A DNA stretch of 64,000 nucleotides. Origin: Pelagomonas calceolata (Eukaryota > Sar > Pelagophyceae > Pelagomonadales > Pelagomonadaceae). This document shows, in pieces, positions 960-60,623 of this stretch. The notes below the pieces were generated by a model. The model made no database searches. It was not told the origin of the DNA and saw only the letters and a program-made list of their open reading frames with translations. How positions within the stretch are numbered: position 1 is the stretch's first letter; every line of letters begins with the position of its first letter. The DNA is taken from positions 4,712,001-4,776,000 of the forward strand of contig CAKKNE010000005.1 of the NCBI GenBank assembly GCA_918797485.1, written 5' to 3'. A program made the position numbers and the translations under genes.

Positions 960-982
960 GCTAGCGTAATGAAAGACACTAG
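960..982 (+). promoter_or_regulatory. Bidirectional promoter motif, copy 1
   Basis: GCTAGCG, then a short spacer, then AAGACACTAG. It lies in the 408-bp divergent interval between the gene starting at 755 (minus) and the receptor gene at 1164 (plus). A weaker partial match (CTAGTGCGTTAC) lies at about 916-927. Confidence 0.6.
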
Positions 983-1163
983 GAGCAAGCAAACCAAGAC
1001 ACCAAAAACAGCGCAGGAGGAGAGAGTTCCGCTCTGCGCCGGTGCGAGAGGAGCGCGCTTCAGCAGCCGCCCTCACGCCCCTGTCGTCAGCCTGCGGGGA
1101 CGCCGCCGACTTAGCCCAAGCCAGCTGCTCACTCCCAGGGGCTGACCCCAGCGCTTCTTGACC

Positions 1164-2759
1164 ATGATGATGGGCCGCCTTACCGTCGGCGCGCTCCTCG
1201 TCGGCCTCGCCGCCACGGAGAACTCCGTCTTCCAGATCAACGTCCCCGCCTCGCTCCGCAAGCCCGGCGGATATTCGCACAAAGCCTCGCTCTTCGGACG
1301 ACCATCCTACGCGTCGACGACGCAGCGCCTCTACTACGCCGGCGACGGCGGCGGCGACGGCACGCTCTGCACGTTCGACACGACGAAGACCTACCCCACG
1401 CCCTTCATTTTGATGGTGGATAGAGGAGACTGTACCTTCGTGACCAAAGCTAGAAACGCGCAGCAGATGGGCGCCACGGCGCTGGTGGTCGCGGACAACC
1501 TGTGCGTCTGCGGGTCCGCGTGCTCGCCGCAGGCCGGCTGCCAGTACACGGAGCCCGTGCTGGCCGATGATGGGTCCGGCGCGGACATCGTCATTCCCGC
1601 GGTCATGCTCCCGAAGCAGGAGGCCGACGACATCGTCAACTATTTTAGGTGCGGCAAGCTCCCGATCCAGGGCCGGCCCCAGACCTGTGCTTGGAGCCCA
1701 GATTGGTCGCAGGACGCCACGGTCCAGGCGTCTTTGGAGTACACGGTCCCAAATCCCGACGACCGCGTCGAGTGGGAGCTCTGGACGACGTCTATTGATG
1801 GGGCTTCTTTGGATTTCCTGACGGCGTTCAAGGATACGGTGCTCCAGCTGGGCACGCACCAGCACTTCGCGCCGATGATGTACACGTATAACGGCTCGCA
1901 GTACGGCTGCGACGTCAAGCAGACGGGGTCGGACATGTGCGGGAATTTATGTACGAATGGGGGGTTATATTGTGCGCCGGATCCCGACGGGAGCCAGGAC
2001 GAGGGTATTAGTGGCGCGGACGTCGTCGCGGAGAATTTGAGGCGGGCCTGCCTGTGGGATTTAGTGGGGGGCGACGACGTCTCCGATAAATCTCAGGTCG
2101 GCGTGGGCAAGGTCTGGTGGGATTATGTGTCGGAGTTCACTCGTTTGTGTTCGACGGCCGAGACATTTGCCGACGATTCCTGTCGGGCCACGGCGATGAA
2201 GAATGCGGGCGCGGACAAGCAGGCCGTCGATACTTGTGTGGAAGGAAGTGGCGGCCTCGAAAAGGGAAGGAACGATGTGTTGGACCAGGCCGTAGAAGCT
2301 CTAGACCGGGAGAATATTGTTTATGTGCCCGAGTGCATTGTTAATGGTGTGGTGCACTACGGCAGCGTCGACCCGCCGAACATACTAGCCTCGATCTGCC
2401 AGGGCTTCCCTATACAAGACCGGCCGCCGGTCTGCGACTGCGCGTCGGACCCGCGCTACGACGACTGCGTCGCGAACAACGGCGCCGCGCCGGCGGCGTC
2501 CGGCGGGTCTTCTTCGTCGAAGGAGCCGGTCGTCGAGCACGACGGCATGCCGTGGTACGGGGTCTTGATGCTCGTCGTGTCGGTCGTCGTCGTCATGCTC
2601 CTCGCGGGCCTGGCCTACTGGAAGCGCACGCAGCGCCAGATGCGCGACCAGGTGCGCGGCATCCTCGCGGAGTACATGCCCATGGAGGACCTGGGGGAGG
2701 CGCTGAACCCCATGCAGACGGAGCCCGACGCTGCGCCGGTCTTCTCCGTGAACGCGTGA
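1164..2759 (+). CDS. Vacuolar sorting receptor-like type I membrane protein
   Basis: 531 aa. Vacuolar sorting receptors are cargo receptors that carry soluble hydrolases from Golgi to vacuole. Seen: a short hydrophobic signal segment after MMMGRLTV; a protease-associated (PA) domain at about residues 45-165, including a strand FILMVDRGDCTFVTKARNA; a long Cys-rich luminal region with the receptor-type sequence around CDVKQTGSDMCGNLC and a second conserved block near YVPECIVNG; a Ser-rich linker; one transmembrane helix at about 463-486; and a 45-aa cytosolic tail with YMPM, matching the YxxΦ adaptor motif (YMPL in plants). ATG 1164 is preferred over the upstream in-frame TTG. Plant receptors have C-terminal EGF repeats; here only a short Cys cluster (CDCASDPRYDDC) precedes the membrane helix. 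Confidence 0.88.
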   Translation: MMMGRLTVGALLVGLAATENSVFQINVPASLRKPGGYSHKASLFGRPSYASTTQRLYYAGDGGGDGTLCTFDTTKTYPTPFILMVDRGDCTFVTKARNAQQMGATALVVADNLCVCGSACSPQAGCQYTEPVLADDGSGADIVIPAVMLPKQEADDIVNYFRCGKLPIQGRPQTCAWSPDWSQDATVQASLEYTVPNPDDRVEWELWTTSIDGASLDFLTAFKDTVLQLGTHQHFAPMMYTYNGSQYGCDVKQTGSDMCGNLCTNGGLYCAPDPDGSQDEGISGADVVAENLRRACLWDLVGGDDVSDKSQVGVGKVWWDYVSEFTRLCSTAETFADDSCRATAMKNAGADKQAVDTCVEGSGGLEKGRNDVLDQAVEALDRENIVYVPECIVNGVVHYGSVDPPNILASICQGFPIQDRPPVCDCASDPRYDDCVANNGAAPAASGGSSSSKEPVVEHDGMPWYGVLMLVVSVVVVMLLAGLAYWKRTQRQMRDQVRGILAEYMPMEDLGEALNPMQTEPDAAPVFSVNA

Positions 2760-2833
2760 CCCTGATCCCCTGTCCCTTGTAGTAAGTTCTCTTTTCCCAT
2801 CTTACACGTTAGACTCATGCGCTTGTCGTCCGA

Positions 2834-4045
2834 TCACGACGCGAGCACGTCGTCCATGTCGGCGTCGCGCCCGTCGTCGACGGCGTTATTTACGAAATAC
2901 TTCCGCCGTGTTAGAATGCAGTTGCGATAAGAGAACCATTCCGCCGCGACCCTGAACACCGGCAATAAGCTCCGCGCGTAGTGCATGCTGCTTTTGATCT
3001 CCCGTGCCATCGGATGTCCACCGCCCAGCACGCGCCGCGCCGTCCGTTCCAACTCCTCGAGCGTCGTCGCGGCCTCGCGGACGTCGTCGAGCGTGGGCTC
3101 GCTGCCCTTGGGGTCCTCGCAGAGCCTCGCCGCGTACAGCCACCTCAATCTGATCGCGAGCTGATGATCCTCTCCAAATACGCGCCGCGCCACAGGGATT
3201 ATTTTGCGCAGCAATGCCTTGGCTTCGTCGGGGTCGAGGTAAAGCCTGGATGACGCATAGTTTTCGGCTAAGACGAGGCTTTCCCTATCATCCTCGCCCA
3301 AGAGCCTACAATGTTTGAAATATGCGTGTCGCACAATGCGCAAGGCCTCTTCACCCCGACCAAGCATTCGATACGTTCTCGCGAGCTTGCCCCGCGCGGC
3401 GAGTATGTCGCCTTCTGGTGCGCCAACGCGCCGCAGCAAAGACAGATGTGCGTGTCTCACGCAGAATGAATCGAGGACGTCTCCGCATCCGACGTCATTG
3501 GCAGCGTACAGACCGTTCCCAAGCTGTTTCATCGCTTCCCGCCGAAGCAGGTTCTCCTCCGGCCGGCCCAAGTATGTCTTCCAGCACGCCCACCCGAGCG
3601 CACACCGCACGGCGCCGTGGTAATCTTGCTCGCACAGGCCACACGAGTACCATCGATCAAAGCGTCGCCCGCCGCCGCGCTCGACCGCGACCTGGGCCTG
3701 CCGCGCCAAGCACGACACGTGCGCGAAGCCAGACTCCCCGCGGCATGAACAACCACGAACGAGACCCTCTTCATCGCCCTCGCCATAACAGATGTAGCAC
3801 ATTTGACCCGCGGTGTCGTCCGCGCACGCCTCGACCGCGACCGAGACGGCCTCATTGTATTTTTGGTCGGCGTGATATTGTTCCGCGTTGCCGCCGTCGT
3901 GTATCGCCAAACACACTTCGTTGTGTCCTCCGCGCTGGCCATCGAGTCGACAGGCCTCACTGCAATATCTGGTGGCACAAACTCCACACCCCGGCGCGTC
4001 GTGGACCAGTGGGGCGGCACAGGCGGCGCAGTGTATGAGGATCAT
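2834..4045 (-). CDS. MYND finger / RING-CH finger / TPR protein
   Basis: 403 aa. Residues 5-45 form a MYND-type Cys/His cluster (CAAC, CGVCATRYCSEAC, H/C end). Residues about 80-140 form a RING-CH-like finger (CYICYGEGDEEGLVRGCSC, then FAHVSC and CGLC), suggesting E3 ubiquitin-ligase or protein-interaction activity. The rest is TPR/kinesin-light-chain-like (LGEDDRESLVLAENYASS, VFGEDHQLAIRLRWLYA). The C-terminal third is homologous to the fragment at 26335, so this is a multi-copy family in this genome. It converges with the receptor gene, with 74 bp between the stops. The function is inferred from domains only. Confidence 0.8.
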   Translation of the reverse strand: MILIHCAACAAPLVHDAPGCGVCATRYCSEACRLDGQRGGHNEVCLAIHDGGNAEQYHADQKYNEAVSVAVEACADDTAGQMCYICYGEGDEEGLVRGCSCRGESGFAHVSCLARQAQVAVERGGGRRFDRWYSCGLCEQDYHGAVRCALGWACWKTYLGRPEENLLRREAMKQLGNGLYAANDVGCGDVLDSFCVRHAHLSLLRRVGAPEGDILAARGKLARTYRMLGRGEEALRIVRHAYFKHCRLLGEDDRESLVLAENYASSRLYLDPDEAKALLRKIIPVARRVFGEDHQLAIRLRWLYAARLCEDPKGSEPTLDDVREAATTLEELERTARRVLGGGHPMAREIKSSMHYARSLLPVFRVAAEWFSYRNCILTRRKYFVNNAVDDGRDADMDDVLAS

Positions 4046-4212
4046 CGTCCCGTTGCGGGCGGAGCTTTAAGTCTCGCGGCTTGCGAAGAAAAAAAAATTT
4101 TTTTCGAGTGATTTTTCGCCAATAAACGGGTTTTCTCCCAACTTTGTGACCTCTCTTATCACCAATTTAAATATTCACAAAGTTAGATAAACAGGGGGAC
4201 GGACAACGAAAC

Positions 4213-6627
4213 TCAGATCTCGATCTCCAGCGGCTCGTCGTCCCAGCGCGTCGCGTCCGCCGCGACCGGCGGGCGGTAGAAGCTCGACATGTGCGTCGTG
4301 AACTCCTCGTCGTCGAGGTTCAACACGCGCTGCCAGGCCTCGCGCTCCGCGGCCTCCGTCTCGTAGCGATCCAATTCGGAATCCTCGCAGAACGCGTCGT
4401 CCAAATACAGGTGCGGGTCGACCGGGCAGCCCTCCTCGTCGTCGCACGGTCTAAAAATGACGTCCGCCGCCGCGCCGAAGTCGTAGCGGTCCCGCGGCTT
4501 CGGGAGGATGCCGTCATCAAATAAATGCAGACATCGCGATTCGAGGTCATATACTAACGGAACACCTGTTGGTATTTCAATGTCGCTGATGACGTCGCGC
4601 GGCACGTCGCATAAATCCATGAGCAACCCGCGAATCGCGTTTTCGGACGACGATATCAATACGGTTCTGTTCTGCGCCACCGTCTGGGGCAGGATCGTGT
4701 CCCTGTAGTAAGGTATGGTTCGTTGCAAGCAGTCTTTCAGCGACTCCGTCCTAGGCAGTTTGTGGTGGAGTTCTATTTTACCGTGGCCCAGGCTCCGGAT
4801 GAAGGACTGCCTCAGACTAATCGGGAGGTCGTGGACGTACTTGACGTAGCGTTCGTCGTTGCCCGGGTATTTTGAGGAAAACGGCGACGCCGGCGGCGGT
4901 CTTTCCGCAAACCCCCGCCGCCACTTCCGGAACTGGGCCTCCCCATGCCGCTGGGCGATCATCTTCTTCGACAGACCGGTCAAAGCGCCGTACATCCTCT
5001 CATTTAACCGCCACGACTTGTGGATCGACACCCAGAGCGAGTCTAAAGGTGCCAACACTAGCCACGCCGTCGTGATGGCGCGCGTGAGCCACGACGTGTA
5101 GACCGCGTCGACCTCGACGCCGTGGGCCGCGAGTAAAGCACCAGCTCTTGAAGCTTCGGCCCGGCCTTCTGGCGAGAGCGGAGCGTCTTCCCAGCCCGTG
5201 AATAAGCCTAATTTGTTGTGCGTCGTCTGGCCGTGCCGTATCAAAATCACGAGGGGAGGGCGCTGCTTGCCCGGCGTCGGGGGCTTCACACTTCTACGCC
5301 GTCTAGGCCGTTCCCTAGACGCCATCGGCCCGGCCTGCGGTTGGGTGGGTCTAGCTTCCACAACACCACCTCTAGCATCAGCATCAGGAACCACAGAAGG
5401 CACGACCTTGATGGGTGCCTGGGCTAATAACGGTACGGGGTCCACCAGCGGTAGATTCGTCCCGAGCTGCGCGTAGGCCATCACCCTCCTTTCTCTAGCT
5501 AGCGTCTCCAGACCTTGCTCCAGAGTAGAACTGACGGCGTCCTGCGACGACGGCGCCCAGGACGGCGGCTCGAGCAGGGCCTTCCTTTCGAGCGCGATGG
5601 CCTCTCTCAATAACCCTCGCTCTTCGAGGAACTCTCCTGAAAGATCGGTTTGGGTCTTGTCCATTGTTTCAACCGGTATTAAGGTACCACTGTCATCCCT
5701 ATCAAACTCATACACTAATGGAATACCATTCGGGATCCCTACTCGTTCAATCACTGAATCGTCGAGGCCATCGATGTTCTTCACCAGGCCTCTCAGGCTG
5801 TTGCCGTGGGCCACGACGACCACATCTAAACCCTCGTCCAAGTCCTGGAGGATTCTTTCTTGAAACACCGGCACGACTCGCTCCAGGCATTCCTCTAAAG
5901 ATTCCGCTCTGGGCAAATCGCCGCGCGGTAATCCTACGTATTTTCTTTCTCTCGTGGCTGAGAGCGCATGCGCGTCCGGGAGTTCGGGAGGCCTAGTAGC
6001 GTAGCCTGCTCTAAATGATTGGACCACGGCCGGGCTGAGGACGTCGACCAGACCGACTTTGCTCCTACCTTGTAGCGCACCATAGTGCCTTTCGTTTAAG
6101 CGCCAGTCCTTGACGACTGGTCGGTAAGTCTGGCCCAGCTCCGCGAGTAAGATCCAAGCGGAGCGAATCGCCCGCTTCAGTACCGAAGTGTACACGACGT
6201 CCGCCTGCAGGCCTCGTTCCAGCATCAGCCGCGCCGCGTGCTCCATCTCCGTCTCGCCGATCGGCGACAGGTCGACGTCGACCCAGCCCGTGAAGGTCTT
6301 GTTGGCGTTCCAAGTCGACTGGCCGTGTCTGATTAAAACAAGCTTGCCGGGCGGCTTGCGGCCGCGGCCCTGCCAGGCCCGTCCGAGCCGTTTCCAGGCC
6401 TTGCCCAGGAGGCCGCGGTCCCTTCTCAATGAAGATTCTAGGGACGAGGCCTCGGGCGGGATCTCGCACTCGTCGAGCGGGCACCAGACATTCTCCTCGT
6501 GGTCGTAGTCGTCATCATCAAAAACGATGGATGGGGCCGGCGGCTTCTTGAGGCCTAAGCGGCGCAGCGGTGCTAGGAGGGCTCGCGTCGAGGCTGCGAG
6601 CAGGAGCCATGTGCTTGCTCTGTGCAT
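4213..6627 (-). CDS. Tandem phosphoglycerate-mutase protein, second domain inactive-looking
   Basis: 804 aa. Two complete cofactor-dependent phosphoglycerate mutase (histidine phosphatase) domains in one chain. Domain 1 (about 95-330) has LIRHGQSTWN with its RHG at 100-102, FTGWVDVDLSPIG, the acid NERHYGALQG and the second histidine VVAHGNSLRGL, so it should be active. Domain 2 (from about 455) keeps LIRHGQTTHN and NERMYGALTG, but near residue 657 the second catalytic His region reads ISSSENAIRGL, without His. The N-terminus (MHRASTWLLLAAST) is hydrophobic and could be a targeting signal, possibly plastid. Glycolytic or Calvin-side mutase activity from domain 1 is likely; domain 2 may be regulatory. 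A promoter motif lies about 190 bp upstream. Confidence 0.88.
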   Translation of the reverse strand: MHRASTWLLLAASTRALLAPLRRLGLKKPPAPSIVFDDDDYDHEENVWCPLDECEIPPEASSLESSLRRDRGLLGKAWKRLGRAWQGRGRKPPGKLVLIRHGQSTWNANKTFTGWVDVDLSPIGETEMEHAARLMLERGLQADVVYTSVLKRAIRSAWILLAELGQTYRPVVKDWRLNERHYGALQGRSKVGLVDVLSPAVVQSFRAGYATRPPELPDAHALSATRERKYVGLPRGDLPRAESLEECLERVVPVFQERILQDLDEGLDVVVVAHGNSLRGLVKNIDGLDDSVIERVGIPNGIPLVYEFDRDDSGTLIPVETMDKTQTDLSGEFLEERGLLREAIALERKALLEPPSWAPSSQDAVSSTLEQGLETLARERRVMAYAQLGTNLPLVDPVPLLAQAPIKVVPSVVPDADARGGVVEARPTQPQAGPMASRERPRRRRSVKPPTPGKQRPPLVILIRHGQTTHNKLGLFTGWEDAPLSPEGRAEASRAGALLAAHGVEVDAVYTSWLTRAITTAWLVLAPLDSLWVSIHKSWRLNERMYGALTGLSKKMIAQRHGEAQFRKWRRGFAERPPPASPFSSKYPGNDERYVKYVHDLPISLRQSFIRSLGHGKIELHHKLPRTESLKDCLQRTIPYYRDTILPQTVAQNRTVLISSSENAIRGLLMDLCDVPRDVISDIEIPTGVPLVYDLESRCLHLFDDGILPKPRDRYDFGAAADVIFRPCDDEEGCPVDPHLYLDDAFCEDSELDRYETEAAEREAWQRVLNLDDEEFTTHMSSFYRPPVAADATRWDDEPLEIEI

Positions 6628-6810
6628 CGTTGGCGCGTACAGCTCTGCTCTCTCAATGTGCTGTCACAGGCCTGGCGCGGTTTTGGGGCAACCGGCAGCC
6701 ACGCGATCGCGTTCGACGGCTCACGCTACAGCTTTCCAACTTGCCCAGCTACTCGCGCGTGCTCGACTGACGGTGAGGGCTGCATGCGCGATGCCCGCGC
6801 CGGAGACAAG

Positions 6811-6831
6811 TTAGCGTTCGTAAGACACTAG
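6811..6831 (+). promoter_or_regulatory. Promoter motif, copy 2
   Basis: TTAGCGTTCGTAAGACACTAG. It lies upstream of the mutase gene (start 6627, minus) and just downstream of the NOP14 stop, so here it can serve only one gene. Confidence 0.55.
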
Positions 6832-6899
6832 AAAAAAATCGGGCCCTGCGACGTAACTAGCCTGAGCCTGAAGATAGCTGCGAGTCACAAACTAGCTAC

Positions 6900-9570: not shown

Positions 9571-10619
9571 ATGGCCTCCATCCTCTGCTGCACTTCCGGC
9601 AACCAGACCGTCGAGGCCGTCGTCCAGCCCGCGTGGGACAACCACTTCGCTGCCTTCGGCGGCCAGGACGTTAGCAAGGTCCTGCTCGACTACTGCGAGG
9701 AGTCCAAGATCATCGTCTACAACTGGCACGACGACACCGAGACCGTGTACAACGGGATGGCTGGCGCCTGTGTGGAAATCAAAATTTTACGGCGCGTTCG
9801 TGCTGAATCGTCGCGTCGTCCTCCACGCCATCGACGCGACGCCTGCTCGATGGCGTGGCGATGCCGGTTCCTCGCCGCTCGACCGAGCCAGGACGGAGGC
9901 GTCATTGCCGAGAAATGACTTAGTGAAGAATTGTCGGGTGCACCTGACACACTGGGTTGATTTCCACACAGGCGGGCGCCAAGGAGTGCTTCACGGGCCT
10001 CTTCGCCGCGCTGCCCGATCTCTCGGGCCTCGCCGCGCCGGAGATCCACGTCGAGGAGGGCAACCCGAAGTCGGTCTTCCTCATCTGGCGCTGCCCGAGC
10101 TCGGGCTTCGTGCACTGCACGGACACCTTCCTCTTCAACGACGCCGGCAAGATCGTGCGCCAGACCGTCTGCATCCTCAACCCGGGCGCGCCCGCGGGCA
10201 AGGCGCCGCTCTGCACGGAGCCGCAGGGCGGCCCGGTCCAGGCGTCGTGGGACAACCACTTCGCCGCGTTCGGCGCCCAGGACGTCGACAAGGTCCTCAA
10301 GGACTACACCGAGAAGTCGGTGATCAAGGTCTATAACCAGGTGACGGACGAGTTGGTCGAGTTCAAGGGCCTGAAGGGAGTCAAGGAGTGCTTCACTGGC
10401 CTGTTCAAAGACCTCTCCGACCTGTCGGGGCTCGCCGCGCCCGCGATCCGCGTCGAGGAGGCCACCGAAGACAAGGCGGGCATGGTCTTCCTCGTGTGGC
10501 GCTGCCCGAGCTCGGGGTACAACCACGCGACCGACACGTTCCTCTTCGACGCCGCGGGCAAGATCGCGAAGCAGAATGTTGTCATCATGAAGCCGGCGGC
10601 CGAGGCGGGCGAGCAGTAA
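9571..10619 (+). CDS. Tandem SnoaL/NTF2-like domain protein (two exons)
   Basis: Exons 9571-9759 and 9972-10619, 278 aa. The protein is two copies of one domain of about 125 aa. Each has W(D)NHFAAFG(G/A)QDV, then CFTGLF and DLSGLAAP, then RCPSSG and (A)TDTFLF. This looks like the SnoaL/nuclear-transport-factor-2 cone fold, which often binds small hydrophobic ligands; no catalytic residue is assigned. The intron is an introner (9760-9971) within repeat 1. Removing it restores YNGMAGAKECFTGLF, matching FKGLKGVKECFTGLF in repeat 2, which has no intron. The intron is GC-AG. It shares upstream and downstream elements with the following gene. Confidence 0.8.
9760..9971 (+). mobile_element. Introner element 1 (full length, GC-AG intron)
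   Basis: The element spans 9768-9971 (204 bp), bounded by CTGTGTGGAAATCAA and its perfect reverse complement. It is flanked by 8-bp repeats GCTGGCGC (9760) and GCGGGCGC (9972), 7 of 8 matching. The intron consists of the first repeat plus the element: it begins with GC from the target copy and ends CACACAG. The interior holds an inverted segment (CACGCCATCGACGCG and CTCGATGGCGTGG). It is nearly identical to element 2. Confidence 0.92.
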
Positions 10620-10667
10620 GCGCACACGACGTCACATCGCGGAACATGCCGATGTGAAGCCACGAGA

Positions 10668-10685
10668 CGCGTAAGTAATACCAAA
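10668..10685 (+). promoter_or_regulatory. Shared downstream element, copy A
   Basis: GACGCGTAAGTAATACCAAAG-type sequence about 50 bp after the stop of the SnoaL-like gene. A similar element (GACGCGTAATACCAAAG) follows the stop of the next gene at about 11809. It is probably part of the 3' UTR or end-processing signal. Confidence 0.4.
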
Positions 10686-10773
10686 GTCTACCACGGGCTC
10701 CTACAATGTAAATACCGGCCGCTAGCCCTAGCATCCCTCAAGAACGCCATAGAGCGGCGCTCTGCCACGGACT

Positions 10774-10789
10774 TCAGGCGAGTTCCGGA
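10774..10789 (+). promoter_or_regulatory. Shared upstream element, copy B
   Basis: Identical to copy A (TCAGGCGAGTTCCGGA), 75 bp before the ATG of the ABM-like gene at 10864. Confidence 0.55.
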
Positions 10790-10863
10790 GGTACGCCGCG
10801 GAGAGTTCCGTAAAACCCAAACCCAAGGTCCCAAGACATCACGCTCTTCCGGAACTAGCAACC

Positions 10864-11800
10864 ATGACGACGCACGCGAACATCTACCCGACGTTCACCA
10901 TCAAGGACTTCGCCAAGGCGCACGGGCAGCGTCCGCAAAGCCGGGGGCAGCGTGCGCGCCAACGCATGCCGCCATGTGCACATGGGAGCTTGGTCTAGTG
11001 GTAGGATACGCGCTTCGGGAGCGCGAGGTCGCTGGGTTCGATTCCCGCAGTTCCCCTATCGCAGTCGCTGGACGCGCGCACCCCCAACGCAGGCCAAGCC
11101 GCTGCTCGACAAGTGCGTCGAGGACACGAGGGCCGAGGCGGGCTGCCTCTACTACGGCTGGACGATCAAGGAGGACGGCTCGAAGCTCTTCTGCCGGGAG
11201 ACGTACGTCGACGGCGCGGCCGCGGGCCACCACCTCTCGTGCGTCGCCAAGTCCGGCGCGCTCGGGGAGGCCCTCGAGAAGGGCTACATCGCGCTCGACA
11301 ACATCGACCTGATGGGCACGGAATCCGACATCGCCGACGCGAAGAAGGTGCCCGAGTTCGAGGGCTTCGGCCTCGGCTCCTGGACGGTCTGGGACTCGTT
11401 CCAGAACTTCAAGCAGACGTCGGCCGAGGAGGCCTCCACCGCCGACTTCTTCACGATCCAGCCCACGTTTACCATCAAGGACCTGAAGCAGGCGGAACCG
11501 TTCATGAAGAAGTGCGTCGACCTCACGAGGAACGAGAAGGGCTGCATGTACTACGGCTGGACGATCCAGGGCGACAAGCTCTTCTGCCGCGAGGCCTACG
11601 TCGACGCCGCCGCCGTCCAGGCCCACCTCGACAACATCGTGCCGTCCGTCGGCGAGATGCTCGATTCGGGCGCCGCGTCGCTGGACAAGATCGAGTTCCA
11701 CGGCCCGAAGGAGGGCTGGCCGACGTTCAAGAAGAGCGCCGACGCGCTCGGCGCCATCTACTGGGACCGCTACGCCAGCTTCTCCAAGTTCAAGATGTGA
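10864..11800 (+). CDS. Tandem ABM-like (dimeric alpha/beta barrel) protein with tRNA-bearing intron
   Basis: Exons 10864-10917 and 11093-11800, 253 aa. Two copies of a domain of about 100 aa. Copy 1 runs YPTFTIKDFAKAKPLLDKC; copy 2 runs QPTFTIKDLKQAEPFMKKC. Both continue with GC(L/M)YYGWTI, KLFCRE and YVD. The pattern fits the antibiotic-biosynthesis-monooxygenase-like barrel; substrate unknown. Aligning the two copies fixes the intron exactly (10918-11092, GC-AG, phase 0). The intron contains a tRNA gene on the same strand. The gene follows the SnoaL-like gene in tandem and shares flanking elements with it. Confidence 0.78.
10918..11092 (+). other. GC-AG intron carrying a tRNA gene
   Basis: A 175-nt intron between ...GCCAAG and GCCAAGCCG. 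The placement is supported by the equal spacing of the two protein repeats. The intron starts GCGCAC and ends CAACGCAG. GCCAAG occurs on both sides, possibly a duplication from an insertion. It lacks the introner inverted repeats. Confidence 0.75.
10984..11056 (+). tRNA. tRNA-Pro (anticodon CGG)
   Basis: 73 nt. The acceptor stem GGGAGCT pairs with AGTTCCC (one G-U), with discriminator C. The A box is TGGTCTAGTGG and the B box is a perfect GGTTCGATTCC. The anticodon stem CGCGC/GCGCG encloses the loop TTCGGGA, giving CGG for Pro CCG codons. The T stem has one mismatch or a bulged base and the variable region is one base long. No CCA is encoded. The gene lies wholly within the intron of the ABM-like gene, in the same orientation. 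Confidence 0.88.
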
Positions 11801-12725: not shown

Positions 12726-13230
12726 TGCGGCGTGGGGAAGGAGCTTGAAGGCGACTGCAGGCGGCGCCGGCTGCCGCGCGCACTCGCTTTTTTGCCTGGG
12801 CTGCTTCTTTGGACCACCTAGGGCCGCGCGCAACGTCGGTGCTGCACTATTTGCGCCGAACAATGCAAATAATTGATGTCGCCTTTTGCTGCTCTCCAAA
12901 CTAGAGCACCGATATAGCCAACGTCATCTGGATACATTTGGTGTGCGCGCACCGGGAGCTCTCCACGGGACGGCTCGGGGGCCCCCCACGAGGCGTACGG
13001 CCGCTTTGAGTTGGGCAGCCCACGATATCCTTGCCGCGGCCGCGGGGCTGCCTTGAAGGCGGGTCCCGCCATCCGCAAGCTGCAGAAGAGTGTCCAGGGG
13101 TATTGTAGGCATCCGCCGTGGGGCGACCTGTACGAACCTCACTTGGCTAGCGTTGTAAGACACTAGCAAACATGCAAGCCGAGCACCGCAGCCTCACGCC
13201 GTCGCATTGGTCGAATAGCGCACCAAGAGC
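12726..13230. other. Divergent intergenic region, MYB / PsbP-like
   Basis: 505 bp between two gene starts. It holds the promoter motif at 13146 but no supported gene; short ORFs here have shadow-like composition. Confidence 0.5.
13146..13167 (+). promoter_or_regulatory. Bidirectional promoter motif, copy 3
   Basis: GCTAGCGTTGTAAGACACTAGC, 64 bp before the PsbP-like ATG and about 420 bp before the MYB ATG on the other strand. The two GCTAG arms are inverted repeats. Confidence 0.65.
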
Positions 13231-13832: not shown

Positions 13833-13861
13833 CTAGCGGCCTGCATAGGTAAGACACTAGC
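13833..13861 (+). promoter_or_regulatory. Promoter motif, copy 4
   Basis: CTAGCGG, a longer spacer, then GTAAGACACTAGC. It lies between the stop of the PsbP-like gene and the ATG of the BTB gene (220 bp downstream). It can serve only the BTB gene, so the motif is not restricted to divergent pairs. Confidence 0.6.
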
Positions 13862-14080: not shown

Positions 14081-14920
14081 ATGTCCGAAGACACGCGCAT
14101 CTTGATAAACGCCGGCGGCCGCGTGTTTGAGACCTCCACGACGACGCTGAAGCTGTCGGGCGCGGGCTACTTCGAAGCGTTGCTGGGCGACACTGGCACG
14201 CAGATGCGTGGCAGAAAGCGCGCGAGGCCTGGTGACGATGCGCCGGAGGTCACAGGTTCCGCCGAAGACGACGCGCCTGGCGCCCCTCGCGAGATATTCA
14301 TCGACCGCGACCCGGACGTGTTCGCCGACGTGCTGCGCTACATGCGGTCGGATCGCCTGCCTGCCGCGGCGGCAAAAGATGAGGATCGTCTCGAAGACCT
14401 GAAGGCGGAGGCGGAATTTCTCTGCTATGACGCGTTGTCGATGGCCTGCGACGCTGCGATTGACGCTATGAGGGCTGCCGAGGCCGCTGCGGCCGCTGCG
14501 GCCGCTGCCAAGGTGATCCCCGAGGCGAGAAACTTGATCATAGAGACGCAAGCCGAAACAGACGACTATGGTGATGATGCGAGCATTCATGTTCCAAAGG
14601 GCCAGGTTCTTTACGTTGTGTCTGCAATGCTAATAATCAGCCAGCCCCTCCAAGACCTCTTCAACGCGCAGAGGAGGCATAAAGGAGCATTTCTCCGTCT
14701 GGAGGCGTGTGGCAAACCAATGATCTTGGTACAACATTGGTTGAAATCAGAACTCGGTGGATTCGATGTCATGCATGGGATTCGCCTCTGCTTCAGTGGT
14801 GGAGAAGAAGAGGAAGTTAAGCTCTCTAGCTACGGTCTCAACTTCCAGATCAACGCATGGGTCGGCCATCCGTCCAAGATCCCCGGCCTCGCGCACGCGC
14901 AGGCGCAGCTGAGCGCCTAG
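14081..14920 (+). CDS. BTB/POZ (T1/KCTD-type) domain protein
   Basis: 279 aa. Residues 5-130 form a potassium-channel-tetramerisation-type BTB domain: ILINAGGRVFETSTTTLKL at the start, then REIFIDRDPDVFADVLRYMRS and AEAEFLCYDAL. A poly-Ala tract coded by a 9-bp repeat (about 14480-14512) separates it from a C-terminal half of unknown fold (IHVPKGQVLYVVSAML). Such proteins often act as cullin-3 adaptors or self-associate; the role here is unknown. A linker insertion (RGRKRARPGDDAPEV) sits inside the BTB domain. Confidence 0.8.
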   Translation: MSEDTRILINAGGRVFETSTTTLKLSGAGYFEALLGDTGTQMRGRKRARPGDDAPEVTGSAEDDAPGAPREIFIDRDPDVFADVLRYMRSDRLPAAAAKDEDRLEDLKAEAEFLCYDALSMACDAAIDAMRAAEAAAAAAAAAKVIPEARNLIIETQAETDDYGDDASIHVPKGQVLYVVSAMLIISQPLQDLFNAQRRHKGAFLRLEACGKPMILVQHWLKSELGGFDVMHGIRLCFSGGEEEEVKLSSYGLNFQINAWVGHPSKIPGLAHAQAQLSA

Positions 14921-16892: not shown

Positions 16893-16915
16893 GCTAGTGT
16901 CTTACTGCCGCTAGC
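16893..16915 (-). promoter_or_regulatory. Bidirectional promoter motif, copy 5
   Basis: GCTAGTGTCTTAC, TGCC, GCTAGC. It lies in the 479-bp divergent region between the HMG-box gene (start 16612) and the membrane protein at 17092. The region also has direct repeats ending TTGAGACCGCG (about 16687 and 16759). Confidence 0.65.
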
Positions 16916-19207: not shown

Positions 19208-19230
19208 GCTAGCGGCCGGTAAGACACTAG
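19208..19230 (+). promoter_or_regulatory. Bidirectional promoter motif, copy 6
   Basis: GCTAGCGGCCGGTAAGACACTAG. It lies in the 525-bp divergent region between the MFS-like gene (start 18893) and the ankyrin gene (19419). Nothing else is recognised in that region. Confidence 0.65.
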
Positions 19231-19418
19231 GGATGCGGGAGAGCAGCCTCCGCCTCCTCTGCTCAGCGCCGCCGTAGCAAGCGCCACGACGCCAACAGTC
19301 ATCGCAAGCTCTAAGTTTTAGACGCCTGCGACGGCCTGCGGTCGCGGCTGAGACGGAACTGTATTGTTCGGCGGTCTCTAGACTGACTCTCTACAGCTTG
19401 GAGCCTTGGGCTGGACAT

Positions 19419-21729: not shown

Positions 21730-21753
21730 GCTAGCGTACTGTAAGACACTAGC
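21730..21753 (+). promoter_or_regulatory. Bidirectional promoter motif, copy 7
   Basis: GCTAGCGTACTGTAAGACACTAGC, between the glycosyltransferase start (21587) and the POP1 start (21910), followed by AAGCACGC. Confidence 0.65.
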
Positions 21754-23685: not shown

Positions 23686-23779
23686 GCTGGCGATTAATAC
23701 GAAATGTGCGCGCTGTCTGGCCTGCGCCAACGCGGCTCCTATGCTCGTGCGTGTTGTGCGCCTTGCTTGCTAGGCATCC

Positions 23780-23802
23780 CTAGTGTCTTACAGGCCGCTA
23801 GC
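23780..23802 (-). promoter_or_regulatory. Bidirectional promoter motif, copy 8
   Basis: CTAGTGTCTTACAGGCC then GCTAGC, 95 bp before the Mpv17 ATG. It is one of two copies in this 423-bp divergent interval. Confidence 0.65.
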
Positions 23803-23904: not shown

Positions 23905-23927
23905 GCTAGTGTCTTACCGGCGCTAGC
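23905..23927 (-). promoter_or_regulatory. Bidirectional promoter motif, copy 9
   Basis: GCTAGTGTCTTACCGG then CGCTAGC, about 180 bp before the RNase H-like ATG. It is the second copy in the interval, in the same orientation and 125 bp from copy 8. Confidence 0.65.
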
Positions 23928-26140: not shown

Positions 26141-26164
26141 GCTAGTGCCTTACAAAAGCGCTAG
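26141..26164 (-). promoter_or_regulatory. Promoter motif, copy 10
   Basis: GCTAGTGCCTTACAAAAGCGCTAG (one substitution in the core), 125 bp before the SirB1-like ATG on the minus strand and 170 bp before the TPR fragment on the plus strand. Confidence 0.6.
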
Positions 26165-26334
26165 GTTATATCTGGACTACAAAGGATACAAACTAAACGC
26201 CATCGCCGCCGCCCGGGACCGCCTCCACCGGTGCCGCGTCAGCACGTGCAACCAGTACGGCCAGAACGCTTTTCGCAGATCGAAGCCGAACGGCCCGCGC
26301 GCCCTCACCGTGGAGTACTGCGCGATACCCGGAA

Positions 26335-39440: not shown

Positions 39441-39466
39441 GCTAGTGTCTTACAACCACCGCTAGC
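39441..39466 (-). promoter_or_regulatory. Bidirectional promoter motif, copy 11
   Basis: GCTAGTGTCTTACAACCACC then GCTAGC, in the 415-bp divergent region between the giant scaffold gene (39241) and HIRA (39657). Confidence 0.65.
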
Positions 39467-41969: not shown

Positions 41970-41971
41970 AC

Positions 41972-43330: not shown

Positions 43331-43354
43331 GCTAGCGGCATGTAAGACACTAGC
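43331..43354 (+). promoter_or_regulatory. Bidirectional promoter motif, copy 12
   Basis: GCTAGCGGCATGTAAGACACTAGC, the form closest to consensus, 61 bp before the PIG-W ATG and about 246 bp before the fusion gene ATG. Confidence 0.7.
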
Positions 43355-47692: not shown

Positions 47693-47716
47693 GCTAGTGT
47701 CTTACAGGACGCTAGC
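47693..47716 (-). promoter_or_regulatory. Bidirectional promoter motif, copy 13
   Basis: GCTAGTGTCTTACAGGAC then GCTAGC, in the 343-bp divergent region between PI synthase (47498) and the small protein at 47842. Confidence 0.65.
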
Positions 47717-48266: not shown

Positions 48267-48288
48267 GCTAGAGCTCGCGACACACTAG
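48267..48288 (+). promoter_or_regulatory. Degenerate promoter motif upstream of the S74 gene
   Basis: GCTAGAGCTCGCGACACACTAG: arms kept, core GTAAGACAC altered to CGCGACACAC. 112 bp before the ATG at 48400; one-directional. Confidence 0.4.
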
Positions 48289-52250: not shown

Positions 52251-52271
52251 CTAGTGTGTTAGTAACGCTGG
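52251..52271 (-). promoter_or_regulatory. Degenerate bidirectional promoter motif
   Basis: CTAGTGTGTTAGTAACGCTGG: the core CTAGTGTCTTAC with changes. It lies in the 492-bp divergent region between the 1010-aa MYND gene (51999) and the ORF at 52492. Confidence 0.4.
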
Positions 52272-53970: not shown

Positions 53971-54140
53971 CGCGTTGTCTGGTTTTTGGATAGATGACCC
54001 AAAGCTTTGTTTATCGCTGTCGCGCGGGTCGCGAGCCGGCGCTCTTGCTGGCTTGATTTCTGAGGTCCCGGCGGCCCTCCTCTCACGCGTGTCGCGCGCG
54101 TAGATGGTCTCGCGCGCTTTCAGAGAGACTTGGGGCTTTT

Positions 54141-54164
54141 GCTAGTGCCTTACATCACGCTAGC
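54141..54164 (-). promoter_or_regulatory. Bidirectional promoter motif, copy 14
   Basis: GCTAGTGCCTTACATCACGCTAGC, in the 342-bp divergent region between 53970 (minus) and 54313 (plus). It has the same core substitution as copy 10. Confidence 0.62.
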
Positions 54165-54312
54165 TATGCTGGATTTAATATTTCCAAAGCGCTACCGGGC
54201 CTAAAACGGCTAAAAACACCTGATAGCTGCTAAAAAAGGCATCTCTGCAGTCGCTGCGCGCTGCTGCCTAGCCTTCGTGCCGTCCGTGACCACCGCTGGC
54301 ATCCCAAAAAGC

Positions 54313-55419: not shown

Positions 55420-55506
55420 TGAATTTTTGAGATATACCTACGTGTACGCTGTCGCCGCGACGGCGGCGACGCGATGATACGACCAATAGAGTTACGCACT
55501 AATGAC

Positions 55507-57306
55507 CTAGAACTCGGGCGTGTAGAGGAACCGCAGGATCCAGGGCATGGACAGCTGCGTCGCCGTGAGGAAGAAGGGCCCTATCAAAGGGATCGTCATC
55601 ATGAGGTCGAAGTCCACGAGCAGGTCCGACCCGAGCTGCGCGAAGCCCTGCACGATGGACGTCCTAAACACTCTCTTGCGCGAGTACGATCCCAAAGCGC
55701 CCGCCGTCTGCTTCGTGTGCTGCACCGTCGCGAGCTCCTCGGCTAGGCGGTAGCCGTCCTCGGTCGACTGGCAGCCGCCCTGGCCGAGGTTGGGCATCAT
55801 CGGGTGCGCCGCGTCCCCGCAGATCGCGACCCTACCAGAAGCCCAGGGCGCGAGCCACCGCTTCGGGTCCCACGTCGCTAAGAGAGGTGCGCCGTCGTAG
55901 AGATCTCTCCTCTTAATATCCTCCTCGGGCGTCGCGTCGACGAGCTCCAGCGCGAAGCCGTCCCAGACCTTGCCGTCCTGGTCGCACGCGTAGGCGTCGC
56001 CGTTCGCGAACTCTCTCCTCAAACGATCGAGCTTGGGCGTCGGGTTCTCCGGCGTCGGCTCCGGGTCGACACCGCCCGCGTCTTCCCTTATCAACGCGAA
56101 CCACTGCTGCCGCTCGCCGCCGCCGTCGGTGCTCACAAAATACTTCTTGTCGCCTAGCAGGATCTGGTAGGAGACTTCTTCGATGTTCGACGCCTTGTGG
56201 TTCGCGAGCGCCGCGTAGCACGTGAAGCCCGAGTACCTCCGCAACGCCTTCTGGGCCACGCGCACCGTGTCGCGCGCCATCTTGCGCGCCTCGGCCTCGT
56301 CCAAGGCGCCGCCCGCCGCGCCCGACGCGGCGTCGCCGCCCGCGCCTTCATCTAACCCGTGCATGATCTTGCGCACGGACGACCAGACGCCGTCCGCGCC
56401 GACCAGCACGTCCCCGAACGCCTCGGTGCCGTCTTCCAGCGTGACCTTGACGCAGCCGCCCCGGTCCTCGTAGTCCACGACGCGCGACTTGATTCGAACT
56501 GTATCGGCGGGGAAGCCGTGCTTGACGAAGATCTGCTGGATCACCGGTCTATCTACAACGACCGTGGGAGGCAGCTCGGCCTCGAGCGCCGGGCCTAATG
56601 TATCAAAACGCACGAGCCAGTCGCCCTTGTCGTACAAACCCGCGAGCTTGTTGCCCCGCTTGTAGCCGATCTTCAGGCCAGATACCCTATCGGCGGTGCA
56701 CGTGCCCGCTTGCACGAGATCCTCATAAATCTGGGGGTTGATGCGCTGGATGGCCCGCAGCGCATTACTCTGAATCTGGATGGGCCCGCCGTAGGGCGCG
56801 TAGGACGACGCCTGCTCGAAGAGGGCCACCTTCATGCCCTTGGAGTGGCACGCGGCGGCCGTCACGAGGCCGGCCAAACCCCCGCCTGCCACCAACACGC
56901 GCAGCGGCTCGTCCGTCGTGAGGTCCCTCTCAGTACCCTCGCCGGCGGGCGGCGGCGAGCGCCACCAGGCCGTCTGATCGGCGTCGCCCGTGAGCATGCC
57001 GCGCAACGCGGCGGCGTCGGCCGCCGCCGTCCGCGCGCGCGCTCTTACTTCTTCGACGCGCTCCGGCGACTCTTCTACCCTCTTCGGCGCCGTCGGCAGC
57101 GCGAAGATGCGCTTGGCCGAGTCGGGCGTGTTGACCTTGTTTTCTTTCGGCGCCTCGCCCTCGGCGAGCCACGGAATATCTAACTTCGCGTCCCGCAGCA
57201 AATCGGCGACGGCGTTCGTGGGCGCGAGGCGCTGGTGCGGCGTAGTGGGTGCGACGAGTGCGTGCGCGGTGGCCGCGAGCCCGATAATGAGTGGGGTGCT
57301 TGGCAT
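55507..57306 (-). CDS. ZEP: Zeaxanthin epoxidase
   Basis: 599 aa. FAD monooxygenase of the xanthophyll cycle, converting zeaxanthin to antheraxanthin and violaxanthin (or the diadinoxanthin step in heterokonts) at the thylakoid. Seen: a signal/transit N-terminus ([20 protein letters not shown], with HALVAP near an ASAFAP-type site), the FAD-binding [33 protein letters not shown] (ZEP signature), [21 protein letters not shown], and the second FAD motif [20 protein letters not shown]. There is no FHA domain, which plant ZEPs carry. The segment at about 40-125 is a low-complexity linker. Confidence 0.9.
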
Positions 57307-57563
57307 GGCTGCAAGCTTTTTATTTACAAGGTTGCTTGCGGAACTGGTGGTCTGCTGCAGGAATGTGTACTGTACTGATGTATTGGTACAACCAAAACGC
57401 GTCGACGAGGCGTTAGCCGCGTCTTGCCACGACCACGATCTTGGGCAAGCTAAAGCTGTGATACAAGTGCCACCCTGCGCGCAGCTGCGGTTTTTGCGAA
57501 GACAACTCGTCGCGCCGTCAAGGACGTGCTGTAGACAAGAAGGAAAGAGGGAATTATCCGGGG

Positions 57564-57585
57564 GCTAGCGGCCATAGACACTAGC
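57564..57585 (+). promoter_or_regulatory. Bidirectional promoter motif, copy 15
   Basis: GCTAGCGGCCATAGACACTAGC (core GTAAGACAC shortened to ATAGACAC), in the 402-bp divergent region between ZEP (57306) and the glutaredoxin gene (57709). Confidence 0.6.
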
Positions 57586-57708
57586 AAAGCTGAGAGGCAT
57601 CGTCTGGGGGCTGCGGAGCGGGCGTGGGAGGCCCTTTCGCGAGCGTTAGGCTGGTCCACGAGTCGCCCAGGACCGCTGCGCGACGCTCCAGGACCGCTGC
57701 TCAGTACG

Positions 57709-58254
57709 ATGCCGCGCCTCGCGGTGGCGCTGGCGCTCTGCGCCGCAGCGTCTGCCTTCCAGGCGCCTGTGTCGCAGCCCGCCCGCAGCAGCCTCGCGCG
57801 GCACGCCGAGGACCCGACGAAGGTCTGGTACGCCGACCTCGCGAACGGCGTGCAGAACCTCCTGCAGAACTCGCCGCTCAACGAGGGAAAAAAGGCCGTC
57901 GTGAAGATGATGGCTGGTGGTTACGATGTCGCCGCGACGAACGAGAAACTGGACGAGCTCATCGCGAACCCGGTCGTTATGCTGTCGTTCACGAAATGAC
58001 CCTTCTGCATCAAGGCGAAGCAGCTGCTCGACGCCAAGGGCGCCAAGTACGTCGCCTACGAGCTCGACCAGGCCGACGACGGGCCAGCCATCCGCGCGGA
58101 GATGTGCGACCGTATTGATCGTACCTCAGTCCCGGCCATCTGGATCGACGGCGTCTACGCCGGCGGCTGCAACGACGGCGGGCTGGGGGGCGTCGTGAAG
58201 CTCGACCAGCAGGGCCGGCTCGACGAGCTGCTCAAGGCGGCCGGCGCCGTCTGA
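57709..58254 (+). CDS. Selenoprotein glutaredoxin (Sec97 at in-frame TGA)
   Basis: 181 aa if the TGA at 57997-57999 is read as selenocysteine. Upstream of it: a signal/plastid-type N-terminus (MPRLAVALALCAAASAFQAP, with an ASAF-like site), an unrecognised 65-aa stretch, then NPVVMLSFTK. Downstream the frame continues with PFCIKAKQLLDAKGAKYVAY, TSVPAIWIDGVYAGG and a final LDELLKAAG, i.e. a complete glutaredoxin fold. The catalytic CPFC is thus U-P-F-C, with TGA replacing the nucleophilic Cys codon. The glutaredoxin cis-Pro TVP-like motif (SVP) and GG are present. A SECIS-like hairpin follows the stop at 58275-58316. Confidence 0.85.
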
Positions 58255-58274
58255 AGGAATCCCGCGCGGCGGCG

Positions 58275-58316
58275 ATGACGCGCGCCCGCTCTCTTTTCTC
58301 CGAGCGGGCGCGCCGA
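58275..58316 (+). promoter_or_regulatory. Candidate SECIS element of the glutaredoxin gene
   Basis: 21 bp after the stop codon. ATGA at 58275-58278 and GA at 58315-58316 could form the SECIS quartet; between them CGCGCCCGCTC pairs perfectly with GAGCGGGCGCG. The apical loop (TCTTTTCTCC) lacks the usual AA, so this is a variant form; some known SECIS use CC. Confidence 0.65.
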
Positions 58317-58562
58317 CGATATTATGTAGCCGCGTAAGGACGCCTGTGTTTAGTACGCTCCTGCTGTTCTTCACTCCCCCTCGCCCATTACTAGTGGTTG
58401 CAAACGAAGAGACTTGACGGCCTCAGAGGACCCGGATCGTGCGGGACACATGCCTGCTTCTGCCTCACAAGCTCCTCCTCTTGGGGCGCTGTAAAATCGA
58501 TTCGCGGGACGCTGTGAGGTCGCGGAGCGACGAGGCGTTCGCCCGGTCGCGGCACCCACACG

Positions 58563-59730
58563 ATGCAGCCCCAGCAGCCGCCGGGCTTCTCTCCAGAACT
58601 TGGTGGAGAGGGAGAGTCCAATGCTGTCGTCATGGGAACAGTCGTCGAGGGAACAGTCGTGCAGCCGCCCGCCCAATCCGTAACAATCGTGCAGCCGGCC
58701 GCCCAACCCGTGGTCCTCGCCCCGCAAGATGTACGTGCGCGCGGCCTCGCCGTCGTGCAGCCGCAGCCGGTGTACGGGCAGCCCCAGCCCCAGCCGCAGC
58801 CCGTCGTCGTGCCCCAGCAGCCCGGGACGTACGCGCAGCCGCCGTACGGGCAGCCCCAGGGCCAGCCGCAGCCCGTCGTCGTGCCCCAGCAACCCGGGAC
58901 GTACGCGCAGCCGCCGTACGGGCAGCCCCAGGGCCAGCCGCAGCAACCCGGGACGTACTACGCGCAGCCGCCGTACGGGCAGCCCCAGGGCCAGCCCCAG
59001 CAGCCCGGGACGTACTACGCGCAGCCGCCGCCCGTGGCGTCCAAGGTGATGCCGATGCCCATGAACGGCCAGATGATGATGCCGCAGATGATGATGCCGC
59101 AGGTGGTACGGGCCCCCGGCCAGTGGAACGGCGGCCAGCCGTGCGGGTGTTGCGACCCGCCGGGCGGCTGCCAGCTCTGCTGCGCCACGTGGTGGTGCCC
59201 GTGCGCGCCGGTAGCGCAGCTCCACGACCGGGTCGTGAGGCCGGGGAGTCACGGGGAGGTCTTCGCGGTCCTCTGCATTGCGCCGGCCCGCGCGGAAATC
59301 ATCTTAAACGGATGAACGCCGACACACCGGTTGCTTTGCACGCAGGCGACGGTTTTCAAGACGGTCGTGAGCTTGCTTTTGACGGCGGCTGGGGTGAACA
59401 TCGACGGTATGCTGCAGCGTGGAATCGTCTTCGCGTCGAGGGCGTGGGGGGCTGACGCGGTCGATCGTCCGCACAGGCCTGCTGAACATGCTACTCGCTT
59501 TCCTCTATTTGCTTTACATGAACCAAATAAGAGAGGCCATCGTCAAGCGGGACGGGATCGCCGACCGCGGGCTTATCTGCTGTGGCGACCCTTGCTGCGA
59601 CAACTACTGGTGTTGGCCCTGTCTGACTTGCTTCTTCATCCGGCACGAGCTCAACAGGAGCGGCGAGACCTACGACGACTGTTGCGGGCCCAGCTGGTCC
59701 CGCGGCGGCGGGCGGGCGCACGTCGTCTGA
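58563..59730 (+). CDS. PLAC8-domain protein with Gln/Pro repeats (three exons)
   Basis: Exons 58563-59258, 59346-59406 and 59477-59730, 336 aa. Residues about 60-165 are Gln/Pro/Tyr repeats (four versions of PGTYAQPPYGQPQGQPQ). The C-terminal part is a PLAC8 domain: CCDPPGGCQLCCATWWCPC, hydrophobic FKTVVSLLLTAAG and LLNMLLAFLYLLYM, then CCGDPCCDNYWCWPCLTC and FIRHELNRSG. PLAC8 proteins are membrane-associated Cys-rich proteins linked to metal tolerance, cell size or Ca transport. Introns were placed by reading frame and the family pattern: intron A (59259-59345) joins HGE/ATVFKTV; intron B (59407-59476) joins NIDG/LLNML and has a GTATGC donor. Confidence 0.75.
58780..59030. repeat. Coding Gln/Pro tandem repeats in the PLAC8 gene
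   Basis: Four imperfect units of about 45-70 bp, each with ACGTACGCGCAGCCGCC or ACGTACTACGCGCAGCCGCC, GGGCAGCCCCAGGGCCAG and CAGCCCGGGACGTA. It is likely to vary in copy number among strains. Confidence 0.8.
59407..59476 (+). mobile_element. Introner element 7 (decayed), PLAC8 intron B
   Basis: 70-nt intron. After 8-bp GTATGCTG the sequence begins CAGCGTGGAATC (cf. CTGTGTGGAAATC) and ends GTCCGCACAG (cf. TTCCACACAG), then GCCTGCTG (6 of 8 match to the first copy). Phase 1. Identification as a family member rests on these resemblances. Confidence 0.55.
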
Positions 59731-59785
59731 ATGAATCCCGCGTCGGCGCGCCGGGCACTTGTCACGAACCCGCCGCCGCCCCCAA

Positions 59786-59841
59786 TGTGAATCCCCATTG
59801 AATCCCCACAACTCCGAATCCCCATTGAATCCCCACAACTC
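59786..59841. repeat. 27-bp tandem repeat
   Basis: Two exact copies of a unit containing GAATCCCCATTGAATCCCCA, itself an inner repeat of GAATCCCCA. It lies in the 3' region between the PLAC8 and peroxiredoxin genes. Confidence 0.85.
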
Positions 59842-59925
59842 CGTGGTCTGGATGAATAAACACTGTTAATTTGGTCGGGTAGGACCGGGGCGCTCGCGCG
59901 CGCGCGACAACCGGCGGCGGCAGGG

Positions 59926-59963
59926 TCGGGCCGCCCGCGAAAGGTTCCGCGGACGGCCGTCAC
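59926..59963 (-). promoter_or_regulatory. SECIS element of the peroxiredoxin gene
   Basis: 38 nt after the stop on the minus strand. It reads GTGAC, a stem GGCCGTCCGCG, an apical loop beginning GAAC with the conserved AA, the pairing strand CGCGGGCGGCC (11 bp, one G-T), then CGA. This is the standard (A/G)TGA ... AA ... GA arrangement. Confidence 0.82.
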
Positions 59964-60000
59964 GGCGCCGCGGCCGGGTCGCGCGCGCACAATACGCCAT

Positions 60001-60501
60001 CTAGAGCTCCGCGAGGAGCGCGGCGGGCCCCTCTCGCGCGTCGAACGGGTCGATGCACTTGACAACGGTGCCGTCGGCGCCGACGACGACCGTCACGCGC
60101 GCGGACTTGTCGCAGGGGTCCGAGCCGTCCTTCGCCGGCTTGCAGACGCCGAACGCCTTCGTCATGGACTTGTCGACGTCGGAGAGCAACGGAAACGCGA
60201 AGTCGAACTTCTCGTGGAAGGCCTTGTTCGCGTCGACGGCGTCGCAGCTCACGCCGTAGAGGTCGTAGCCCTTGGCTTTAAATTGGTCGCAGAGCGCCGT
60301 GAACGCCTGCCCCTCCGCGGTTCACCCACCCGTGTCCGCCTTAGGGTAGAACCACAAACAGTAGGCCGAGCCCGCGAGCGAGTCCGACGAGACCGCGGCG
60401 CCCGTGTGCGCCGTCACAGCGAACTTGGGCACCTGGGCTCCGGCCTTCAAGGACATGGCTCGGGCGCCGGCGCACAACGAGATTGTTGCCACACGCAGCA
60501 T
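60001..60501 (-). CDS. Selenoprotein peroxiredoxin, PrxQ/BCP-type (Sec60 at in-frame TGA)
   Basis: 166 aa if TGA at 60322-60324 is selenocysteine (from ATG 60501; a second ATG at 60456 would remove a 15-aa hydrophobic leader, MLRVATISLCAGARA). The frame reads MSLKAGAQVPKFAV, CLWFYPKADTGG-U-TAEGQAFTALCD, then YDLYGVSCDAVDANKAFHEK, FAFPLLSDVDKSMTKAFGV and ARVTVVVGADGTVV. The TGA sits exactly at the peroxidatic Cys of the YPKADTxxCT motif. Peroxiredoxins reduce hydroperoxides; PrxQ is typically plastid-located. A clean SECIS lies just downstream. The stop is TAG at 60001-60003. Confidence 0.88.
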
Positions 60502-60600
60502 TCAGCCGACGTGTCCTGTAGGCGCTCGCGACTACTAATTGCAGCCGCGTTGCCCTCTCGCGCTCCACTGAGAGCGAGACTCTGTTGTGAGACGCCAGCT

Positions 60601-60623
60601 CTAGTGTCTTTACAGGCCGCTAG
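60601..60623 (-). promoter_or_regulatory. Bidirectional promoter motif, copy 16
   Basis: CTAGTGTCTTTACAGGCCGCTAG (one T inserted in the core), in the 554-bp divergent region between the peroxiredoxin (60501) and PCNA (61056). Nothing else is recognised there. Confidence 0.62.

Follow-up and report, generated by a model that had tools for sequence, protein, structure and literature searches.

Promoter architecture has scarcely been described beyond a few models. In yeast, Reb1, Abf1, and Rap1 sites lie in the promoters of many unrelated genes, divergent and tandem, and tolerate either orientation; Abf1 sites are bipartite. Drosophila DRE/BEAF-32 and Motif 1/M1BP sites are short elements of many promoters, including those of head-to-head pairs, and vertebrate ZNF143, NRF1, and YY1 sites are long or palindromic and enriched at divergent genes. 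General regulatory factors are reported to act with RSC on nucleosomes and directionality (PMC9481977), and oomycete core promoter elements are described as genome-wide promoter words of a stramenopile, placed around the start site (PMC3599244). Here we analyze a repeated two-armed DNA element in a 64-kb stretch (63% GC; hereafter the window) of Pelagomonas calceolata, one of the ocean's most abundant algae. The RCC100 assembly is reported to comprise 32.4 Mb in six nuclear contigs, along with plastid and mitochondrion, at 63.6% GC and with 16,667 genes (PMC9481584).

The element resembles known general promoter sites as a kind. It shares with the yeast sites its promoter location, tolerance of orientation, association with many unrelated genes, and presence at both divergent and tandem promoters. 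It differs from them in its length of about 24–29 bp, its two arms, its variable spacer, and its sequence. The Drosophila sites have other sequences and are shorter; the vertebrate sites also differ in sequence, and the P. calceolata element is as frequent per promoter at tandem as at divergent genes. Unlike the oomycete core elements, it is orientation-free, a separation drawn from their description. Open-licence text searches and term look-ups in P. calceolata papers, without supplements, found no promoter motif for this alga, and nine papers contain one of four element letter strings, none of them about algae by title. As far as these searches go, the length, two-arm form, and abundance of the element in this lineage are new.

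The element stands before about a third of sampled genes, whichever direction the genes run. We consider it probable that a general regulatory factor with bipartite binding recognizes the element and organizes promoters without fixed direction. This reading draws on restriction to promoters, freedom of orientation, position with respect to the ATG, the sharp edges of the copies, and conservation at orthologous promoters.

The consensus is GCTAGCG-N(0-6)-GTAAGACACTAGCAA, about 29 bp long. Its left half, GCTAGCG, and its right half, the 13-base core GTAAGACACTAGC, are separated by a spacer of mostly three to four bases. Among the first 100 listed exact genome copies, all on contig C1, the spacer measured 4 bases in 63 copies, 3 in 26, 2 in 4, 0 in 4, and 5 in 3; none had 1 base. 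The left arm fits GCTAGCG better than the GCTAGnG proposed in a first-pass annotation of the window. Two arms with a nearly fixed spacer fit a bipartite or dimeric binder, and a plain homodimer is hard to reconcile with the asymmetric core. A plain palindromic dimer of GCTAGCG was rejected as the form of the site: With every place read on both strands, the palindromic pattern occurs at 20 places genome-wide versus 8 for the control, and some of the 20 carry GTAAGAC-like cores, so the asymmetric core matters.

Copies far exceed chance. Within the window, GTAAGACACTAGC at up to two mismatches matched 14 times, against a shuffled mean of 0.67 and maximum of 3 (100 shuffles). Over the 32,445,274-base assembly in 8 contigs, the genome-wide scan proposed in the first-pass annotation returned 3,251 copies of the 13-base core at up to one mismatch versus 12 for the reversed pattern; exact two-part copies numbered 1,322 versus 0 for the control, and the spacer-4 form with up to three mismatches 2,357 versus 2. 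Positions relative to genes were measured in a 324-kb sample comprising the window, two 100-kb stretches, and two 30-kb stretches on four chromosomes, fetched regardless of the motif and leaving out C6 and the parts of C5 outside the window. A matrix was built from 48 sample copies at up to one mismatch, the left arm and variable spacer were then allowed for, and copies were called at a score of at least 12; training used the same blocks that were later counted, without gene positions. The true right-hand matrix gave 55 matches, eight column-permuted matrices 0–5. Counts were nearly constant across thresholds from 10 to 20, so the sites stand clearly apart from background. Scaling the 3,251 core copies by the ratio of matrix to core matches in the sample (64 to 48) extrapolates to a genome total of ~4,300.

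The 48 copies are alike from the left arm to about three to five bases past the right arm, with next to no base preference in at least 29 flanking columns on the left and ~35 on the right; selection at up to one mismatch inflates the core columns of this alignment and leaves the flanks unaffected. Because likeness stops at the element edges, there is no sign of a dispersed transposon body, an origin that the first-pass annotation had named among those that would refute its reading. Descent from a mobile element or introner would suit the thousands of copies, and introner-like introns are reported for this genome (PMC9481584). We nevertheless regard such a remnant as extremely improbable: The copies are unlike outside the element, none is coding, and the word abundant in predicted introns, CGCCATCGA, is a different sequence, on which ground an introner origin was rejected. 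Two further candidates were discarded: an RNA gene, as Rfam shows only one tRNA in the window, and viral carriage, as the viral_contigs set held no exact matches to three patterns. Around the element, AT content followed no evident trend apart from that of the element.

Gene positions came from a codon-usage model instead of the published annotation, with doubtful cases among the small and intron-bearing models; on the strand predicted, 21 of 30 scanned window proteins (6/10, 8/10, and 7/10) matched a Pfam family with E ≤ 0.001. Against these models, the 64 sample copies comprised 44 in divergent, 16 in tandem, and 1 in convergent intervals, 1 in an intron, and 2 past the last gene at a block end. 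None fell in 247,347 coding bases. Counted by interval, the element occupied 41 of the 69 divergent, 16 of the 54 tandem, and 1 of the 68 convergent intervals (P = 5e-15 for divergent versus convergent, P = 6e-6 for tandem versus convergent, and Fisher P = 0.001 for divergent versus tandem). A cleaner test, with the plain first-pass consensus at up to two mismatches outside the window, gave 23/54, 12/44, and 1/53, respectively, with one match in 196,566 coding bases. The element is thus present in many promoters and rare elsewhere, and the equal density in convergent intervals or coding sequence that would have spoken against a promoter link was not seen. Half sites by themselves were set aside as the signal: GCTAGCG outside full copies shows a modest excess, 14 in 50.5 kb of promoter intervals versus 11 in 247 kb of coding sequence.

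Gene borders without promoters bear on another explanation, in which the element acts like BEAF-32 sites as a chromatin boundary or architectural site that separates neighbors and meets promoters by chance. Free orientation, palindromic arms, and one copy per interval would fit such a role, as would the lie of tandem copies between upstream stop and promoter. Convergent neighbors also share a border, however, and there the element occurs once in 10.9 kb versus ~10.5 copies expected from intergenic density. Occupancy follows promoters and not borders as such, and we hold this role to be quite unlikely.

The first-pass annotation had claimed a special tie to divergent promoters, which is not supported per promoter. 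The Fisher contrast between divergent and tandem classes is per interval and makes no correction for the two promoters of a divergent interval. One common rate, 0.34 per promoter, accounts for both classes (likelihood ratio P = 0.40), and two promoters at the tandem rate would give 50% divergent occupancy versus the 59% observed (binomial P = 0.15). The divergent enrichment is therefore mostly arithmetic, because each divergent interval holds two promoters. A dedicated bidirectional element, evolved for head-to-head pairs and driving both genes together, would accord with the 44 of 64 copies found in divergent intervals, near their center, but tandem promoters carry the element at a matching rate and at the same position, ~210 bp upstream of the ATG, which leaves this explanation unlikely. 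Part of the original claim does find some footing: Only 3 two-copy divergent intervals were observed versus 8 expected under the common rate, a shortage that leans toward the bidirectional explanation and hints that a single copy may serve the two genes.

The median tandem copy lies 210 bp before the ATG (range 129–405 bp) and 86 bp past the upstream stop. In divergent intervals the element is central (Kolmogorov–Smirnov test versus uniform, P = 0.006), with a median distance of 155.5 bp to the nearer ATG and of 232.5 bp to the other. Its orientation, judged by position, is free: 9 of 16 tandem copies point along the gene, and one of seven orthologous pairs is inverted. These two observations disfavor a directional core promoter element, one that sets where transcription starts in the manner of a TATA box or initiator. 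Such an element would suit the restriction to promoters and the roughly constant spacing from the ATG, yet the distances are loose for one, and we rate it very unlikely. A factor site with inverted GCTAG arms and an asymmetric core, suggested in the first-pass annotation, agrees with a promoter-restricted distribution far above chance and is the best reading of the data.

Under the general regulatory factor reading, we infer that a protein binds the element. The predicted protein would contact the left half GCTAGCG and the right half GTAAGACACTAGC across the spacer. Once bound, it may keep the promoter nucleosome-free and recruit the transcription machinery, steps suggested by likeness to the yeast general regulatory factors. 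Transcription would then begin on one or both sides, ~200 bp upstream of start codons, with direction set by other signals nearer each gene, and a single copy could presumably serve two genes. Presence, place, and free orientation of the element fit a protein that prepares the promoter rather than pointing the polymerase. With so long and nearly unambiguous a site in thousands of promoters, sequence alone can predict promoters and gene starts; the site also offers a bait for the putative protein and a test of how one site could serve two genes in a compact genome.

Orthologous promoters came from searching prokaryote genomes with the two-part pattern, which matched seven contigs. At least four of these are really from Pelagomonas-like algae: L036 matches C1 at 90–96%, a protein of L040 shares 97% identity with one on C2, and L038 and L037 are collinear with C6:2236569-2246679 (83–94%) and C4:4553256-4555373 (70–88%), respectively. 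All four are filed in bacterial metagenome-assembled genomes (Spirochaeta sp. MED672 and others) and are mis-binned eukaryote DNA. The match on L041, a contig of an insect symbiont, may be due to chance. Seven promoters could be matched, four in L038 and one each in L037, L036, and L040. The element is present in both genomes at all seven, in the same orientation at six and inverted at one (L044 versus L038 at 5362). In five diverged pairs, element identity was 28/30, 24/25, 24/27 (the inverted copy), 17/27, and 31/32; three of the five combine a 93–97% identical element with an unalignable left flank, and the left 60 bases are at shuffled level in all five (30–37 versus 31–35).

Several observations weigh against the general regulatory factor reading, among them the shortage of two-copy intervals. 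The contigs were found through the element, so their promoters were not drawn at random and 7/7 cannot be read as an unbiased rate; L035, L039, and L041, three of these contigs, were left out of the comparison. In two diverged pairs the right flank is conserved as well, at 49 and 48 of 60 bases (36–38 in the other three), the element itself is poorly kept in the 17/27 pair, and a one-base insertion leaves the P. calceolata ortholog copy in L042 with a score of only 7.0. Copies also lie in one convergent interval and in one predicted 680-bp intron, although that intron may be a merged gene pair. All interval classes also depend on codon-usage gene predictions.

A related site, CTAGCG-N(2-8)-GACATACTAG, has 149 copies versus 0 for the reversed control, and the form ending in GACACACTAG has 285 versus 2; some copies are hybrids that retain GTAA. 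Outside full copies, the sample holds 18 CTAG-pair sites, of which 16 are in divergent or tandem intervals, 1 is convergent, 1 is in an intron or at a block edge, and none is coding. Adding them raises occupancy to 45/69 divergent, 23/54 tandem, and 2/68 convergent intervals. In a more specific proposal, to which we give a little short of even weight, a pelagophyte-specific general regulatory factor would use both the long two-armed, flexible-spacer site and a second site type, CTAGCG-N-GACA[TC]ACTAG, to organize about a third of promoters. The site would then be kept at orthologous promoters while its orientation flips, because only presence and place matter.

The window itself carries 17 copies, listed below with matrix scores, together with one site of the related type (variant B).
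915 to 927, minus strand: decayed copy, score 18.1, the second in divergent interval 756-1163.
960 to 983, plus strand: element, score 27.1, divergent interval.
6810 to 6832, plus strand: element, score 35.8, tandem interval, ~196 bp before the ATG of minus-strand gene 4213-6627.
13146 to 13167, plus strand: element, score 40.3, divergent interval between a Myb-like gene and a PsbP gene (Pfam).
13839 to 13861, plus strand: element with a poor left arm, score 29.4, tandem interval, ~228 bp before the ATG of 14081-14920.
16893 to 16915, minus strand: element, score 38.8, divergent interval.
19208 to 19231, plus strand: element, score 36.4, divergent interval.
21730 to 21753, plus strand: element, score 42.0, divergent interval whose right gene matches POP1_N (Pfam).
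23779 to 23802, minus strand: element, score 36.4, first of a pair in one divergent interval.
23905 to 23927, minus strand: element, score 41.3, second of that pair, in the same divergent interval.
26141 to 26165, minus strand: element, score 31.9, tandem interval with uncertain gene models.
39441 to 39466, minus strand: element with a spacer of 6, score 32.3, divergent interval between a WD40 gene and a HIRA-like gene (Pfam).
43331 to 43354, plus strand: element, score 42.0, divergent interval with GWT1 (Pfam) as left gene.
47693 to 47716, minus strand: element, score 39.5, divergent interval.
54141 to 54164, minus strand: element, score 39.5, divergent interval.
57564 to 57585, plus strand: diverged element, score 19.7, divergent interval.
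60600 to 60624, minus strand: diverged element, score 14.3, divergent interval with PCNA (Pfam) as right gene.
63188 to 63211, plus strand: variant B site CCTAGCGTATACAGACATACTAGA, divergent interval 63100-63422.

Fourteen copies occupy 12 of the 15 divergent intervals and three lie in tandem intervals (6820, 13849, and 26141), in agreement with the 16 clear copies, 13 of them between divergent starts, counted in the first-pass annotation; the two copies it called one-directional and the one beside a gene fragment are the three tandem copies. Its statement that copies are always intergenic is borne out, with none in coding sequence or convergent intervals of the window at the matrix threshold. 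It had reported one interval with two copies; that pair was recovered, and the decayed copy at 915-927 makes a second. Decayed candidates near 48277 and 52250 score below threshold and were left out of all counts. The element is more frequent in the window than elsewhere in the sample: At the matrix threshold, 12/15 divergent intervals are occupied inside versus 29/54 outside. Where the last core base is G instead of C, copies tend to continue GATGCC or GCATCC, not AAGC (window 19219 and 23779; L037; L038), as if the element had two 3′ subtypes.

Other recurrent words were observed in the sample. A second promoter word, GGCTGCCC, falls in divergent or tandem intervals at 45 of 66 occurrences, in a convergent interval once, and in coding sequence at 19 (for example, window 956 on the minus, 43494 on the plus, and 39290 on the minus strand); in tandem intervals, 12 of 17 occurrences run along the gene, often 20–140 bp before the ATG. 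The word ACGCCATCGACGCG recurs at window 1-20, 16350, and 62000 and elsewhere in the sample. Its core, CGCCATCGA, lies in predicted introns or at block edges at 28 of 73 occurrences and in coding sequence at 21, on which basis it probably belongs to an introner family. A tRNA-Pro (cgg) at 10984-11056 lies inside the intron-bearing gene model 9571-11800, which is therefore probably wrong. Between convergent genes, GTAAGA occurs 12 times in 10.9 kb, versus 31 times in 247 kb of coding sequence and 5 times in 50 kb of promoter intervals; it is perhaps a 3′-end signal.

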